DNA of 43,618 nucleotides from positions 1 to 43,618 of the forward strand of contig DAIDKV010000185.1 of the NCBI GenBank assembly GCA_027449865.1, in the 5' to 3' direction. The position numbers and the translations under genes are program-made. Below, piece by piece: positions 12,796-33,016 of this stretch. Position 1 is the stretch's first letter; each line of letters opens with the position of its first letter. Under the pieces are notes generated by a model. That model worked only from the letters and a program-made list of their open reading frames with translations. It had not been told where the DNA came from and did no database searches. The stretch is from Planctomycetales bacterium (GTDB lineage Bacteria; Planctomycetota; Planctomycetia; Isosphaerales; Isosphaeraceae).

Positions 12796-15504
12796 TCAGG
12801 ACGCGGCCTCGACTCCGATCGCCTTCCCGGCTTCCGACGTCCGGGCCGCCCGTCGGTTCAGGGCCCAGAGCGCCAGCCCGCAGGCGATCAGGCCGAGGGC
12901 GACGAGGATCTCGTCCCAGTAGGCGAGCCAGTCGAGTCGGACCCAGGCCGCCGACTCCCAACCGCTCGACATCACGGCCAGAGGTCGAACCACCGCCTCG
13001 ATCGTGCTCAGCTCGATGCCGATGGGGCCCAGGCCCATCAAGTATGGTCCGATCACCATCGGGACGAGTGCGATCGCAATGCCCATCATGGTGGCCCGCC
13101 GGCGTCGGCGGCACGCCAGGCCCACCGCCGCGCCAAATTGAACGATCGCCGCGCCGTGGGCCAGGATCGTTGCGAACAACAGCACGGCCAGGCCCAGCCG
13201 ATCGATCCGGGCAGGGGGGCGGTTGGTGTCGTACCGGGCGATTTCCTCCGCGGTCGCCAGGCGGTAGGACGGGATCCCCTTCGCGTCGATCGTGGTCACG
13301 TAGACGTCCGAGGTGCCTGAGTTTGTCCAGATCTGCTGGGACGTGCCACTGCTTCCGGGTGGCGTCGGTATGACCCTCGTATCGATCCAGATGCGCACTG
13401 GCGCCACAACCAGCGCCACCGCGATCAGCACCGGCCCGATCGCCAGCAGCAGGACCATCCGAAACGCCTCCCACCATCGGACGAGGTACGACCGGCGGTC
13501 GAAGACCTCGGCCGACTCGCGCGAGGTCGAGCGCGCCGCCATCGCCGAGGCCAGCACTAGCCCGACCGCCATCCCGAACGCCGCCAGGGTGATCCCGGGC
13601 CCTCCGCCGGAGTAGGGGTGCCGGAATGCCCCTCGCCACGCGGCCACCGACCCGATGACGCCGCCCGCCTCCATCATCACCGCCAGCACGAGCAGGACGT
13701 CGCCGAACGTCGACCGACGGACGGGGCGGTCGGGGATCCGGCCGAGGCAGTCGTCGAACGTCCGGATCGTCAGCCAGACCAGCCCCAGCGCCAGGATCAG
13801 GCACTCGACATCCCAGAACAGGATCCAGCCGAACGGCATCCGGTTGTAGAACATGTCCCGGCTCAGCCATTCCAGAATCTGGGCGAGGGCGACGATCGGC
13901 GAGAGGGACGCTAGGCTATCGCCACCCGCTCCTGTCCTCGTGGTCGAGAGCAGGATCGGCCAGCCGCCGCCGATCGCCAGCGTGAAGCCGAGGCTGATCG
14001 CGATCGCGCGCCCCTGCCGCGCCACCCAGACGGCCGACGCCAGCCCGACGCTCGCGATCAGGGCGCCGTGGATCAAAATCGTCGCGACCGCCAGCCCGGC
14101 CAGACCGAGCCGCATCCCGAGACCGAACTCGCCGTACGGCCAGACCGACAGTCCCGGCGGGAGGACCCTCGCCGGCCGACCGGCCGTCGCCAGGGCCAGG
14201 GCGAACACCGAGGGCCCGATCAGCAGCAGAAGGAGCGGCCGCAGCGCGCCGAGCCACTTGCCGATCACGATCGTCGCGGACGACATCGGCGTGGCGGTCA
14301 GCAGGTCGAGGCTCCCTCGCTGCCGCTCCTCGGCCATCGACGTCGGTGCTGACGCCGCAAGCATCAGCCCGCCGAAGGTCAGCAGGATGAACGTGCCGAA
14401 GATTCCAGGGATGATTTGATCGCGGCTTGCGCCCGATCCGTAGGGGTCGAGGCCGAGGACCCAGGCGGCCACGGCGCTGTAAATGCAGGCCATCCAGGCG
14501 GCCACGGCGCTGTAAATGCAGGCCATGGTCGTCGAGCCGCCGACCAGGACGACCAGGATCAGCAGCCATCGCGAGACGCGCATCCGGTGCCACTCTCGCC
14601 AGAAGACGGGATTGCCGTCGAGCGAGGGGCCGGGCAGCATCCGGACCGCCCGCGCCAGCAGCCCGGGCCCGACCCGCTTCGACGGCCGGCCCTCGCCGAC
14701 GATCCCCTTGCGCGCCACCGGCCGCATCCGCCAGATCGCCAGCAACACCAGCGCGACCGAGAGCCCGAGCGCCGAGCCGAACGTGCCGAGGTAGTCCTCG
14801 ATTGTCAGCTTGCCCGGCCTCGCATACGGGGCATAGGCGATGTAATAGGGGTCGAGCCAGAGCGTCCATTCGGGCGGTCGGCCGATGATCGAGCCGGGGT
14901 AGGTCGAAATCCCGTACCAGATCGGCCAGAGGAGCAGGGCGGCCATCCAGAAGGTGTAAACAACCATCACGACCTCGTGCGACTTCCGCGCCCAGACCGA
15001 GAGCGTGATCGCCATCGAGCAGCCGACCAGCGCCACGGCGATCAGCACCGCAAACGCCAGCACCAGCGCCATCGGGTCGATCCCGCCGAGCAGCGAGCTG
15101 ATCGCGAGGATCGGCCACGAGCAGGCGACCAGCCCGAGGACCGGCAACATCCGCGCCGCGAGCTTCCCGAGGACAATCTCGACATCGGATAAATCGGTGA
15201 CGAGCATGTGCGCGAGCGTCCCGCGCGCCCGATCGACGCAGATCGCCCCGGCCGTCGCCGCCGGCGCCGCGAGCATCACGAGCGTGATCTCGACGCCGAT
15301 GATCCCGTAGAAGAGCGACTCGCCGATCGCCGCGTATTCCCGCCACGACATCGAATTGTCAGACGACCATGTTCGTGACGAAACGACCGTGAAGATGGCA
15401 ACGCACAACATCGCGCCGCCGAAGGCCCGGACGGCGTAGGTCTGCCATCGCCGGGACGCCACGAGGCCATCATAAACGAAGACCGGCCCCAGACCCCATC
15501 GCAT
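12796..15504 (-). CDS. Fused ABC-2-type transporter permease, about 902 residues
   Basis: A large membrane protein with two permease halves. The first has hydrophobic segments from about residues 20-50 to about 260; the second starts near PGPSLDGNPVFWREWHRM and has many more segments to the C-terminus. ABC-2 motifs are visible: MSWREYAAIGE, ARGTLAHMLVTDLSDVEIVLGKL in the first half and the second-half equivalent AEERQRGSLDLLTATPMSSA. These ER.RGTL/LL.T segments are typical of permeases that move lipids, drugs or polymers. The expected ATPase gene is not adjacent. An in-frame 33-bp tandem duplication (14461-14526) doubles 11 residues around ACIYSAVAAW. I chose the internal ATG at 15504; a GTG six bases upstream is the alternative. 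Confidence 0.88.
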   Translation of the reverse strand: MRWGLGPVFVYDGLVASRRWQTYAVRAFGGAMLCVAIFTVVSSRTWSSDNSMSWREYAAIGESLFYGIIGVEITLVMLAAPAATAGAICVDRARGTLAHMLVTDLSDVEIVLGKLAARMLPVLGLVACSWPILAISSLLGGIDPMALVLAFAVLIAVALVGCSMAITLSVWARKSHEVVMVVYTFWMAALLLWPIWYGISTYPGSIIGRPPEWTLWLDPYYIAYAPYARPGKLTIEDYLGTFGSALGLSVALVLLAIWRMRPVARKGIVGEGRPSKRVGPGLLARAVRMLPGPSLDGNPVFWREWHRMRVSRWLLILVVLVGGSTTMACIYSAVAAWMACIYSAVAAWVLGLDPYGSGASRDQIIPGIFGTFILLTFGGLMLAASAPTSMAEERQRGSLDLLTATPMSSATIVIGKWLGALRPLLLLLIGPSVFALALATAGRPARVLPPGLSVWPYGEFGLGMRLGLAGLAVATILIHGALIASVGLASAVWVARQGRAIAISLGFTLAIGGGWPILLSTTRTGAGGDSLASLSPIVALAQILEWLSRDMFYNRMPFGWILFWDVECLILALGLVWLTIRTFDDCLGRIPDRPVRRSTFGDVLLVLAVMMEAGGVIGSVAAWRGAFRHPYSGGGPGITLAAFGMAVGLVLASAMAARSTSRESAEVFDRRSYLVRWWEAFRMVLLLAIGPVLIAVALVVAPVRIWIDTRVIPTPPGSSGTSQQIWTNSGTSDVYVTTIDAKGIPSYRLATAEEIARYDTNRPPARIDRLGLAVLLFATILAHGAAIVQFGAAVGLACRRRRRATMMGIAIALVPMVIGPYLMGLGPIGIELSTIEAVVRPLAVMSSGWESAAWVRLDWLAYWDEILVALGLIACGLALWALNRRAARTSEAGKAIGVEAAS
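14461..14526. repeat. Perfect 33-bp tandem duplication inside the ABC permease gene
   Basis: Positions 14461-14493 and 14494-14526 are identical. Being 33 bp, the duplication stays in frame and repeats 11 residues (MACIYSAVAAW) in a predicted membrane segment. The identity indicates a recent slippage or an assembly artefact. Confidence 0.95.
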
Positions 15505-15541
15505 GACCACGGCCTCCCCTGGCTCGGTCCGCCGCCGGATG

Positions 15542-15695
15542 GTTTTCAGTTTTCGGTTTTCAGTTTTCGGTTTTCAGTTTTCAGTTTTCAGTTTTCAGTT
15601 TTCAGTTTTCAGTTTTCAGTTTTCAGTTTTCAGTTTTCAGTTTTCAGTTTTCAGTTTTCAGTTTTCAGTTTTCAGTTTTCGGTTTTCCGTTTTCC
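15542..15695. repeat. Heptanucleotide tandem array, GTTTTCA x about 22
   Basis: Twenty-two consecutive 7-bp units from 15542 to 15695. Most are GTTTTCA; the variants GTTTTCG and GTTTTCC occur at both ends of the array. The last units encode the C-terminus and stop codon of the four-helix-bundle gene on the minus strand. Four units of the same heptad in opposite orientation lie at 16069-16096, on the other side of that gene. Confidence 0.97.
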
Positions 15696-16049
15696 GTCCC
15701 GCGGTCGGCTGGCCAGCGAATGGGCGAGACTGGTGAGCATCTTCGAAATCGCCTTCAGCTCGGAGATCAGATGAAAAAATGGCTCATCTTCCAGCATCCC
15801 GATTCTCCTGGCGATGTAGAGTTGCGTGCGAAGCTCGGCGGCAGATCCGCGAGCGATCCGGAGAAACCTCTCGAAATCCCTACCGCCTCGCTCGGAACCT
15901 TCCGCGATGTTCGATGGTATCGATAAAGCCGCCCGCTGCATCTGATTCCGCAAGGCGAATTCACGGCTCTCCCTGAAGACCTCAAACACATAAACAGCGA
16001 CCTGGCATCCTCGCTTCCAGACCTCAAGGTCTTCGAACGAATGATACAT
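15672..16049 (-). CDS. Four-helix-bundle protein (S23/IVP family, Avd-like fold)
   Basis: A 125-residue protein from ATG at 16049. The family signature is clear: FEDLEVWKRGCQVAVYVFEV, then LRNQMQRAALSIPSNIAEGS, the ERGGRDFERFLRIARGSAAEL helix and a last helix ISELKAISKMLTSLAHSL. The family is named from proteins encoded in intervening sequences of bacterial 23S rRNA; it shares its fold with Avd, the accessory protein of diversity-generating retroelements. The role of free-standing members is unknown. The last codons (GKRKTEN and the TGA stop) are read from the heptad array. Inverted heptad arrays flank the gene, suggesting a mobile or replicating cassette. Confidence 0.92.
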   Translation of the reverse strand: MYHSFEDLEVWKRGCQVAVYVFEVFRESREFALRNQMQRAALSIPSNIAEGSERGGRDFERFLRIARGSAAELRTQLYIARRIGMLEDEPFFHLISELKAISKMLTSLAHSLASRPRDGKRKTEN

Positions 16050-16068
16050 GATTGCTCTCGTAAAGAGC

Positions 16069-16096
16069 CGAAAACTGAAAACTGAAAACTGAAAAC
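16069..16096. repeat. Short heptad array, TGAAAAC x 4, inverted relative to the array at 15542
   Basis: Four 7-bp units (CGAAAAC then three TGAAAAC), the reverse complement of the long array. It abuts the stop codon of the GlcE-like gene at 16097, so the cassette boundary is sharp on this side. Confidence 0.95.
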
Positions 16097-17344
16097 TCAG
16101 CCCACGAACCGCCCGGGATTCATCGCATGATGCGGATCGAGCGCCGCGCGAACACGGTCGGCGATCGCCCGGTCGGCCCTCGGCTCGCCCCAGACGCGGA
16201 GGCGTTCCTTCCAGTCGGTTGGGCATCGCGATAGGATCAGGTTGCCGCCGTCCTGGACCGCACGGGCGCGGAGCGGGGCGATGGCGGCGTCGGCGTTGTC
16301 GGGCGTCCAGTCGCCGAGGGCGTGGGCGCGGACGATCCCGTTCCCGGCGTGGGCCTGCGCTGCCCATCGCGAGGGATCGAGCGAGGAAACCATCGCCGCG
16401 ACTGACGACGGCCGGACGTTCGCCACGAACGAGAGCGGCCCGGGCGCCTCGGCCTGGAACGTGGTGAGTGCGTCCCAGAGGGCCAGCGCCGACGCGCCCT
16501 CGACGACCGCCCGATCCGTCACGCCGACCTCGGCGCCGAGGCGATCGAGCTGCCAGCGGACGGAATCGGCGTTGTCCTCGTAGCCGACGACCAGCGCCGG
16601 CGCCTCGGCCGGAAGCCCGGCGCCCGCGACCCGCCCGACGATCGCCGCGGCCGGAGCGTTCAAAAGCTCGATCGCGACCGGACGGGTCGACGAGGTATTC
16701 AGGGCGTCGAGCCGATCGGCGATCGCCGAGGGATCGGGCATCGGAACCCAGGCGATCGCGGTGGCCTCGGGCTTCGGCCGGACCTTCAGCGTGAGCTGCG
16801 CGATCACGCCGAGCGTCCCCATCGAGCCGGTCAAAAGCCGGGGAAAGTCGTAGCCGGCGACATTCTTGACGACCCGACCGCCGCCGTGCACGAGCGCTCC
16901 GTCGGACGTGACAAAGGCCACGCCGATGATCTGGTCGCGGGGCCGTCCCCATCCGAATCGGCGGGGGCCGGAGGTGTTCGTCGCGTAGATCGCGCCCAGG
17001 GTGGCGCGGTCGGGATCGGGAGCGTCGATCTGGAGCCGCTGGCCCTGGCCGTCGAGGAGACCTCGGAGCGCGGCGAGAGTCATGCCGGCCTCAATGGTGA
17101 TCGTCATGTCGGCGGCCGGGTAGTCGATCAGGCGGTCGAGCGACCGGGTATCGACGGCAACGCCCGGACGCCCGGGGATGCCGCCGTAGTCGAGCGAGGT
17201 TCCGCCGCCCTGGGGATAGATCGCCTGACCGGCGGCGACCTGGCCTCGGACAATCTCGCGGAGCGAATCCAGATCGGTGGGACGGAAGGCGGCGGTCGAC
17301 GATCGGCCGTCGCCGATCGGGGCGGGGGGCAAGGTCTCGGTCAA
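16097..17344 (-). CDS. glcE: FAD-binding oxidoreductase, GlcE-like glycolate oxidase subunit
   Basis: 415 residues from a TTG start at 17344 that overlaps the stop of the upstream gene (TTGA); no ATG lies near the expected N-terminus. FAD-binding type 4 motifs are visible: YPQGGGTSLDYGG near the N-terminus, then TLGAIYATNTSGPRRFGWG, and VVKNVAGYDFPRLLTGSMGTLGVI. The C-terminus, NPGRFVG, is typical. GlcE with GlcD and GlcF oxidises glycolate to glyoxylate; the partners are not in the window unless they lie elsewhere in the genome. Other FAD/lactate-type dehydrogenases remain possible. It is encoded immediately after an unknown protein with which it is translationally coupled. Confidence 0.85.
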   Translation of the reverse strand: MTETLPPAPIGDGRSSTAAFRPTDLDSLREIVRGQVAAGQAIYPQGGGTSLDYGGIPGRPGVAVDTRSLDRLIDYPAADMTITIEAGMTLAALRGLLDGQGQRLQIDAPDPDRATLGAIYATNTSGPRRFGWGRPRDQIIGVAFVTSDGALVHGGGRVVKNVAGYDFPRLLTGSMGTLGVIAQLTLKVRPKPEATAIAWVPMPDPSAIADRLDALNTSSTRPVAIELLNAPAAAIVGRVAGAGLPAEAPALVVGYEDNADSVRWQLDRLGAEVGVTDRAVVEGASALALWDALTTFQAEAPGPLSFVANVRPSSVAAMVSSLDPSRWAAQAHAGNGIVRAHALGDWTPDNADAAIAPLRARAVQDGGNLILSRCPTDWKERLRVWGEPRADRAIADRVRAALDPHHAMNPGRFVG

Positions 17345-31604: not shown

Positions 31605-31719
31605 AGTGGTCAGTGGTCAGTGAAGGAGCGGTAAGAGTTTGCCTGGCCAGATCGCATCAGCCGACCCGTCTTTCCACCGACCATGTTTCCACGGAACACT
31701 ACCTACGGAAAACGGAAAA
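31605..31719. repeat. Degenerate heptad clusters in the HEAT-lysA gap
   Basis: Two short 7-bp repeats lie in this gap: AGTGGTC twice plus AGTG (31605-31622) and CGGAAAA twice (31706-31719). The second matches the edge variant of the long array at 15542-15695; the first shares its CAGT core. No gene lies between them. Confidence 0.6.
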
Positions 31720-31732
31720 TTCGGACCACGGA

Positions 31733-33016
31733 CTATTCAAGGATTTCCGGGCGGAGGAGGTCGTCGAAGGTCTCGCGGCGGCGGACGAGCCGGGCGTTGG
31801 TACCGTCGACCAGGACCTCGGCGGCTCGGGGACGAGTGTTGTAGTTGGAGGCCATAACCATGCCGTAGGCACCGGCGGAGAAGGTGGCGATGAGGGCGCC
31901 TCGGTCGAGCCGGGGCAGGTGTCGATCCTTGGCCAGGAAGTCGCCACTCTCGCAGACGGGTCCGACGACGTCCCAGGGCTCGGTGCCTTCGGGCTGCGTC
32001 TCGGCGTCGCCGGGCGGGGGCGAGACACCGGGCGAGAGGACGGCTGGCCAGATCCGGTGATACGACTCATAAAGCGCGGGCCGGATCAGGTCGTTCATGG
32101 CGGCGTCCTGAATGAGGAACCGCTTGTCTCCCGACTGCTTGGTATATAACACACGGCTGAGCAGGATGCCCGCATTCCCGGCGATGACCCGCCCAGGCTC
32201 GATCGCGAGGCGACATCCGGCGGCCTTGACCGACGGGGCGATCACGCGGGCAAACTCCTCGACGGGGCGAGCTTCGTGGCCCTTGTAATTGATTCCGTAA
32301 CCCCCGCCCATGTTGTACCAGGCGATCGGATGGCCCAGTTCTCGAAGCCGTGCGATCAGCTCCACTCCCTTCGCCACGGCGCCGGCGTAGGGCTCAACGG
32401 TGGTGATCTGCGAGCCGATGTGCATGTGCATGCCGATCATCCGGACGGAATCGATCGCGACGGCCGACTCGGCGACCCGGAGGGCGCGCTCGATGTCCAT
32501 GCCGAACTTCGATTCCTTCTTGCCGGTCGAGATGTATCGGTGGGTTTTGGGGTCGACGTCGGGATTGACGCGAAGCGCGATCGGGGCGACCTTGCCGATC
32601 GAGGCGGCGACGCGGGCGATTGCGTCGAGCTCGGCCTCGCTTTCGACGTTGAACATCAGGACGCCCGCCTCGAGCCCGGCCTGGATCTCCTCGTCGGTCT
32701 TGCCGACGCCCGCGAACACGGTTTTCCCCGGATCTCCGCCGGCGACCCGGACACGGTGCAACTCGCCCGACGAGACGACGTCGAACCCGCTCCCGTGCGC
32801 CGCCATCACTTTCAGGATGCCGAGATTGGAGTTGGCCTTCACCGAGTAGCAGACCAGCGGATCGACCCCGGCGTAGGCCGACTGGAGGGCCTTCAAGGTC
32901 CCCAGGAACGAGGACTGGCTGTAGACGTACAGAGGCGTCCCGAACCGATCGGCCAGTTCGGCCGCCGGGATGTCCTCGCAATACAGTTGGCCGTCGCGGT
33001 AGTGGAAGGGTTCCAT
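31733..33016 (-). CDS. lysA: Diaminopimelate decarboxylase
   Basis: 427 residues from ATG at 33016 (MEPFHYRDGQLYCED). It is a PLP enzyme of the alanine-racemase fold: the PLP lysine is in VCYSVKANSN (Lys60), followed by GSGFDVVSSGEL, HMHIGSQI, the glycine-rich phosphate loop NMGGGYGI, and the conserved GPVCESGDFLA (Cys and Glu of the active site from the partner subunit). It catalyses the last step of lysine synthesis, meso-diaminopimelate to lysine, in the cytoplasm. Length is normal for the family. It lies downstream of a Uma2 gene and argH on the same strand, with gaps of about 50-140 bp. Confidence 0.97.
   Translation of the reverse strand: MEPFHYRDGQLYCEDIPAAELADRFGTPLYVYSQSSFLGTLKALQSAYAGVDPLVCYSVKANSNLGILKVMAAHGSGFDVVSSGELHRVRVAGGDPGKTVFAGVGKTDEEIQAGLEAGVLMFNVESEAELDAIARVAASIGKVAPIALRVNPDVDPKTHRYISTGKKESKFGMDIERALRVAESAVAIDSVRMIGMHMHIGSQITTVEPYAGAVAKGVELIARLRELGHPIAWYNMGGGYGINYKGHEARPVEEFARVIAPSVKAAGCRLAIEPGRVIAGNAGILLSRVLYTKQSGDKRFLIQDAAMNDLIRPALYESYHRIWPAVLSPGVSPPPGDAETQPEGTEPWDVVGPVCESGDFLAKDRHLPRLDRGALIATFSAGAYGMVMASNYNTRPRAAEVLVDGTNARLVRRRETFDDLLRPEILE

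Follow-up and report, generated by a model that had tools for sequence, protein, structure and literature searches.

Genes of the S23/IVP family, which encode four-helix-bundle proteins, are linked across many bacterial phyla to inverted tandem arrays of period 7. One such “cassette” lies in the window, a term that here denotes the whole 43,618-nucleotide stretch of planctomycete DNA that was analyzed. On balance, this cassette is probably a small mobile element in which an IVP pentamer recognizes its own heptads, and in which the cassette and its non-coding derivatives are spread by IVP together with host enzymes. The parts, namely the IVP family and heptad repeats, are known; their joining into one protein-repeat system is new within the open-access papers searched, among which no text was found linking heptads with S23/IVP genes in general. 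We know of no function for the S23/IVP family, for which structures have been available since 2006.

The cassette in the window

The original observation, that 22 units of GTTTTCA and four units of the reverse complement box a single S23/Avd-fold gene, is confirmed by TRF, which resolves the arrays as (GTTTTCA)21.9 at 15542-15694 and (GAAAACT)4.0 at 16070-16097, by pattern search, and by profile searches (Table 1). The 14-mer GTTTTCAGTTTTCA, with up to two mismatches allowed, has 24 matches in the window, all of them in the two arrays, where 0.14 would be expected, so that chance is excluded for these arrays. In the long left array, GTTTTCA is interspersed with some GTTTTCG and GTTTTCC units. 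The gene, read on the minus strand from an ATG at 16049, ends inside this array at 15672, its last eight codons and stop being array sequence. The cassette, of about 555 bp and with one ORF, is flanked by an ABC-permease-like gene, which starts at 15510, and by an FAD/GlcE-like gene with a TGA stop (16097-16099) that overlaps the final array base.

Table 1. Coordinates of the cassette and its parts, as positions in the window
Feature	Position	Strand	Description	Evidence
Left heptad array	15542..15695	+	22 units GTTTTCA/G/C, G/T-rich strand toward gene	TRF, pattern search, unit count
S23/IVP four-helix gene	15672..16049	-	125 aa; 3' end and stop codon within left array	PF05635, TIGR02436, AlphaFold2 model
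Right heptad array	16070..16097	-	4 units, reverse complement of left array	TRF, pattern search
Whole insertion	15540..16101		Missing at homologous sites of congeners G017 and G018	blastn and alignment with L262 and L264

Membership of the encoded protein in the family is clear from both PF05635 (E 5e-31; 107.5 bits against a curated cut-off of 33.8) and TIGR02436 (E 1.8e-29; 102.1 bits against 24). The AlphaFold2 monomer model (pLDDT 94.8) is predicted to form four helices in an up-down bundle, and its best structural match is 2gsc (XCC0516 of Xanthomonas campestris; TM-score 0.8-0.9), with 2rld (BT_0352) and then Avd as further matches; these relatives have five chains or are known rings. 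The protein is under purifying selection, with dN at 0.13-0.24 and dS saturated. No catalytic activity is visible in it, and to our knowledge none is known for IVP proteins. As quoted in PMC4990558, XCC0516 was described as a ring of five four-helix bundles (Lin et al. 2006). Phage records contain no close relatives of XCC0516.

Within the cassette, PF05635 is the sole family found by Pfam search, HUH/Y1 transposase is absent, and there is no reverse transcriptase or template/variable repeat. A known structured RNA is ruled out as its identity, since the window has no Rfam match. The arrays are predicted to pair as RNA into a long stem around the gene (z -4.0). An insertion in a 23S rRNA helix is likewise ruled out by the position between two protein genes, and 23S motifs were found around none of the surveyed IVP genes.

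Elsewhere in the window, TRF and inspection weakly indicate a probable decayed, gene-less heptad pair at 31605-31735, in which AGTGGTC (2.6 copies, 31605-31622) and ACGGAAA (two copies, 31705-31719) are separated by about 80 bp of unrelated DNA; AGTGGTC is the same word as TCAGTGG, which flanks IVP genes in two congeners. The ABC-permease gene contains a perfect 33-bp tandem duplication (14461-14526) by which MACIYSAVAAW is repeated in the protein.

Period-7 arrays and their units across phyla

Two sets of IVP genes, each chosen regardless of repeats, were surveyed. The first comprises 100 genes, most of them retrieved by a family search within the family and phylum to which the window belongs; the second comprises 80 named IVP genes collected by protein similarity. 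Six loci of the second set, being re-deposits of first-set loci, were left out of pooled statistics. Period-7 arrays occur near IVP genes at 0.92/kb in the first set, against a background of 0.09/kb, and at 1.61/kb in the second, an 18-fold enrichment over 0.088/kb. A period-7 array lies within 500 bp of the gene in 67 of the 80 loci of the second set, compared with 5.8% of random windows from the same contigs. Periods 4-6 and 8-12 are without comparable enrichment near the gene in the second set; in the first, period 8 is enriched too, to a lesser degree (0.135 versus 0.023/kb). The phyla represented in the second set include Planctomycetota, Acidobacteria, Chloroflexi, Omnitrophota, Proteobacteria, Cyanobacteria, Spirochaetes, and Bacillota, among others. 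On cyanobacterial plasmids, at a looser threshold, a period-7 array lies no more than 600 bp from the gene in nine of 11 IVP loci; in two of these nine it has only about two copies. In about half of the Planctomycetota loci of the first set, including most of the ISNNIAEG-type subfamily, no array was found at the threshold used.

Arrays on the two flanks of an IVP gene are usually reverse complements. In an exact two-copy test, 17 of 94 loci have an inverted match between their two flanks, compared with 0.1 when flanks are swapped between loci, and three have a direct match; because this test is blind to imperfect arrays, the 17 inverted matches are a lower bound. When the surveyed loci were searched from the repeats alone, 14 heptad-bounded stretches were found away from the query genes, and the two that contain an ORF of at least 100 aa both encode IVP. 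Arrays near IVP genes also become scarcer past five units (46 of 29-35 bp against 11 of 36-42 bp), a drop that depends on how broken arrays are split.

The impression that free-standing planctomycete IVP genes are often near such heptads is upheld, and inverted heptads accompany these genes far beyond planctomycetes; the unit is not GTTTTCA as such. Units vary by lineage and include GTTTTCA, TAGCGGG, GTGTGGG, TCAGTGG, GGGAGTC, GTAATTG, and AGTAGGC, and a conserved GTTTTCA motif as the link to IVP is ruled out, each lineage having its own 7-mer. The link is to the period of 7, and the units are not arbitrary. In 88 loci the gene-pointing strand of the unit has more G than C, and in nine more C than G. 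The triplet AGT is present in 58 of 111 units on the gene-pointing strand and in three on the other; none of 2000 shuffles exceeded 31. After reduction to a set non-redundant at 55% protein identity, 17 of 40 units contain it, against a shuffled mean of six. Similarity of units also tracks similarity of proteins among pairs below 60% identity (r -0.23, a strength reached in 0 of 1000 permutations), a covariation that may in part reflect inheritance of whole elements.

With strands taken together, units are not enriched in stop codons, and stop-codon content was set aside as an explanation. Stop codons on the outward strand are commoner than in shuffled units (33 versus 21 of 111); as 7 is coprime to 3, a unit that contains a stop ends translation in every frame within three units.

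Insertion sites and dispersed arrays

Judged by alignment with its congeners, the window cassette is an insertion. In two of these (G017 and G018), the same two neighbor genes are about 92% identical to those of the window, and homology stops at 15539 and restarts at 16102; where the window has the cassette, both have an unrelated spacer of about 80 bp, common to the two. This break in homology indicates that both the old spacer and the end of the upstream gene were lost on insertion; the stop of that gene is now supplied by the cassette junction. A second copy of the cassette in this genome (G000), at the end of contig C142 (L046), is 96% identical over 543 bp with unrelated flanks; a one-base insertion in a T run shifts the frame of its IVP gene, which may therefore be decaying. 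The predicted insertion exactly between two genes is upheld by the empty congener sites and the paralogous cassette, but the old spacer was replaced, and no clean drop-in is seen.

Insertion is likewise indicated in Cyanobacteria. The nrdB-nrdA spacer of Nostoc edaphicum holds an IVP cassette with AGTAGGG heptads, and in its place Calothrix NIES-4105 has about 15 bp. The cas6-cas4 interval of Anabaena sp. 90 contains an IVP gene; a Dolichospermum plasmid whose flanks are 99% identical has none there, yet its spacer contains another repeat. No target-site duplication was seen at the compared sites, at which a spacer had been replaced (about 80 bp and about 15 bp) or six bases differ. On cyanobacterial plasmids (L228 and L236), IVP genes sit within CRISPR operons, at cas6/cas4 and cmr2/cmr3, and could be mistaken for CRISPR-associated genes. 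At another locus (L053, 1257-2092), near-perfect terminal inverted repeats of about 64 bp surround the IVP gene inside its heptad arrays, in the manner of an insertion sequence.

The same heptads are dispersed through this genome. Twenty-one array pairs were read, of which 20 are ordered GTTTTC...GAAAAC and none the opposite way; in the last of them, two like arrays were read, followed by an opposite one. The DNA between paired arrays is 49-459 bp long and mostly unrelated, and of the 20 pairs besides that of the window only one, the second copy, encloses IVP. The gene-less pairs fit non-autonomous derivatives. An origin of the cargo from IVP itself is ruled out, the cargos being unrelated except for the two IVP copies, a 113-bp cargo common to C246 and C247, and a shared MITE. 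This MITE-like palindromic cargo (GAGACTCCTCGCTCA... GGAACCCTCGCTGGCGCTTCGGGTT), 83-85% identical, is found in three heptad pairs (L045, L048, and L313).

In the clearest cases, the dominant unit of a genome matches the unit of its own IVP gene to one base. Where IVP is flanked by GTTTTCA, in this genome, GTTTTCA has 124 matches and GTTTTCG nine; where it is flanked by GTTTTCG, in G019, GTTTTCG has 33 and GTTTTCA six, as predicted from the IVP flank. TAGCGGG arrays are confined, among the family's 45 genomes, to the two (G043 and G044) with TAGCGGG-flanked IVP genes. Arrays of TCAGTGG are abundant in G016, G017, and G019 and rare in other genomes of the family, and TCAGTGG-flanked IVP genes occur in G017 and G019. 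Many GTTTTCA arrays are present in G016 and G018, in whose incomplete assemblies a matching IVP was not found. In six of the surveyed loci, against 0.4 expected, the unit near an IVP gene reappears on its contig at a distance above 1.5 kb.

Comparison of individual spacers indicates that arrays can change in place, with no movement of a cassette needed. At one spacer, the arrays are GTTTTCA in this genome, and in G017 and G018 cargo that looks related by eye is bordered by AGTCCTT-like repeats; at a neighboring spacer, the cargo of G018 is different and its arrays are GTTTTCC; a third array site is empty in G018. Differing heptads around related cargo imply that the array-making process can act on both sides of an existing spacer, and cargo can apparently be exchanged between array pairs. 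A simple cut-and-paste cassette fails to explain arrays rewritten in place and the exchange of cargo. Two outcomes had been named beforehand as counting against a mobile element: the first, a gene always present at orthologous sites, is contradicted by the two empty congener sites, and the second, heptad arrays distributed independently of four-helix genes, finds partial backing: arrays also occur without the gene, a pattern that fits non-autonomous derivatives. At several loci (L034, L035, L037, L047, L313, and L314), insertion-sequence-like ends of the TGACGTCACCGACAGAAATCCGCG and TGACGTTGCCGACAGAAGTGCGGCG types lie directly in or against heptad arrays, as if these were preferred targets.

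A proposed mechanism and its rivals

The proposal of a mobile protein-repeat element draws directly on the family-wide association, the inverted arrangement, the strand polarity, past movement, covariation, and matched genome-wide arrays. The element would be a free-standing relative of the S23-ORF intervening sequences of 23S rRNA, with one IVP gene between inverted heptad arrays, and the ring of five four-helix bundles would be the sequence-specific partner of those arrays. Each ring would bind heptads of its own type in tandem, these being probably single-stranded RNA or DNA; one repeat per subunit is the probable stoichiometry, with which the drop in array length after five units is in line, and recognition would run through an AGT-type core plus lineage-specific bases. 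That the protein recognizes the heptad ends had been predicted; covariation of unit and protein and the matched arrays indirectly favor such recognition, with binding itself inferred from these sequence patterns. IVP may then promote copying or exchange of DNA between two arrays, the chemistry being supplied by host replication, recombination, or other enzymes. The autonomous form would spread its own IVP gene, non-autonomous forms would be array pairs around unrelated short DNA, and the arrays of a genome would be homogenized to one unit by IVP activity. By analogy with the Coxiella heptamers at an RNase III site, and given the predicted stem, the insert may be tolerated because RNase III-type cutting of the array stem could excise it from transcripts.

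The most serious competitor, though an unlikely one, makes IVP a passenger without a role, frequently carried by arrays that arise and spread alone through slippage and recombination between arrays as arms. That most array pairs in this genome are without IVP, that no matching IVP was found in the array-rich but incompletely assembled G016 and G018, and that cargo at one site varies between congeners would all be expected of such arrays. Against it, no other protein family than IVP recurs as coding cargo from phylum to phylum, unit and protein covary, and the dominant unit of a genome is that of its own IVP in the clearest cases. Inverted pairing and strand polarity are in addition left unexplained by slippage, by which a plain slippage array is ruled out.

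It is less probable still that IVP is an RNA-binding regulator that reads heptads in transcripts, with scattered arrays as operators and the arrays beside its own gene serving autoregulation. In rings such as TRAP, each subunit binds one of several regularly spaced short RNA repeats, spaced triplets in the case of TRAP, and the ring-shaped IVP fold, the fall in array lengths past five units, the strand-specific AGT core, and the intergenic position of arrays, often directly after stop codons, would suit a comparable role. The likeness to TRAP is an analogy only, TRAP being of unrelated fold and without mobility. Operators would hardly be expected at array sites that are not conserved between congeners, among neighboring genes in which no common function was seen, or in an inverted pairing that holds in 20 of the 21 pairs of this genome regardless of gene orientation.

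Very little probability attaches to an element selected only for its RNase III-cleaved RNA stem, in the manner of rRNA intervening sequences, with a vestigial protein; the predicted pairing of the arrays and the Coxiella case, in which an RNase III site lies at heptamers and the protein is apparently not made (PMC4990558), are offset by strong purifying selection on IVP and by its covariation with the unit. Assembly artefact or chance simple repeats, to which the heptad arrays ending several contigs of this draft genome might point, can largely be dismissed: the association recurs, with independent controls, in many phyla, in named records, and on complete plasmids, and junctions with homologous flanks are clean.

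Several known systems resemble the proposed mobile element in part. The rRNA intervening sequences of Coxiella and Leptospira contain an ORF of the same protein family in a stem of terminal inverted repeats, and the cassette likewise has terminal inverted repeats predicted to form a stem around its ORF; unlike them, IVP cassettes lie between protein genes, with arrays that are long, unit-specific, and genome-dispersed. In the Coxiella 23S rRNA intervening sequence, tandem GACAGAT heptamers of variable copy number adjoin the ORF at the RNase III site (PMC4990558). Intergenic heptads have also been described as GGGAATC in Xanthomonas and Nostoc, with 70-75 convergent inverted pairs per Xanthomonas genome near stop codons (Rehm et al., PMC4692102), and as TAACTGA arrays in Beggiatoaceae (PMC4679880). 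These repeats are described as G-quadruplex-forming or regulatory, with no protein partner proposed and, in the passages searched, no mention of a four-helix gene. X. campestris, in which Rehm et al. found 70 convergent GGGAATC pairs, also encodes XCC0516, the closest solved IVP. In REP/BIME elements with their RAYT transposases (PMC2817692), a chromosomal gene is flanked by inverted repeats that are also dispersed in intergenic pairs, an arrangement found for IVP cassettes both in the survey and in this genome; IVP differs in having no HUH/Y1 transposase domain, and its repeats are heptads in tandem, where those of REP elements are single palindromes. Avd of diversity-generating retroelements shares the fold (TM-score about 0.7 to 4dwl and 8ub7) at about 13% identity, and the cassette lacks the retroelement's reverse transcriptase and template/variable repeat. 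Avd acts in a ribonucleoprotein with reverse transcriptase.

A broader and decidedly speculative possibility is that IVP/S23 proteins are the sequence-specific factors of repeat-spreading elements throughout bacteria, their pentameric rings each reading about five tandem heptads and directing how these are added or copied where DNA is broken or replicating, in a telomere-like manner and possibly, like Avd, in company with a reverse transcriptase; this would explain many bacterial heptanucleotide repeats and the origin of rRNA intervening sequences. More immediately, two orphans, the S23/IVP family and the abundant intergenic heptanucleotide repeats of bacteria, appear to be halves of one system. 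If so, a protein would stand behind a class of repeats that has been ascribed to polymerase slippage, it would become possible to test how rRNA intervening sequences originated, and a recognition code from protein clade to 7-mer could be read from sequence and tested at the bench.
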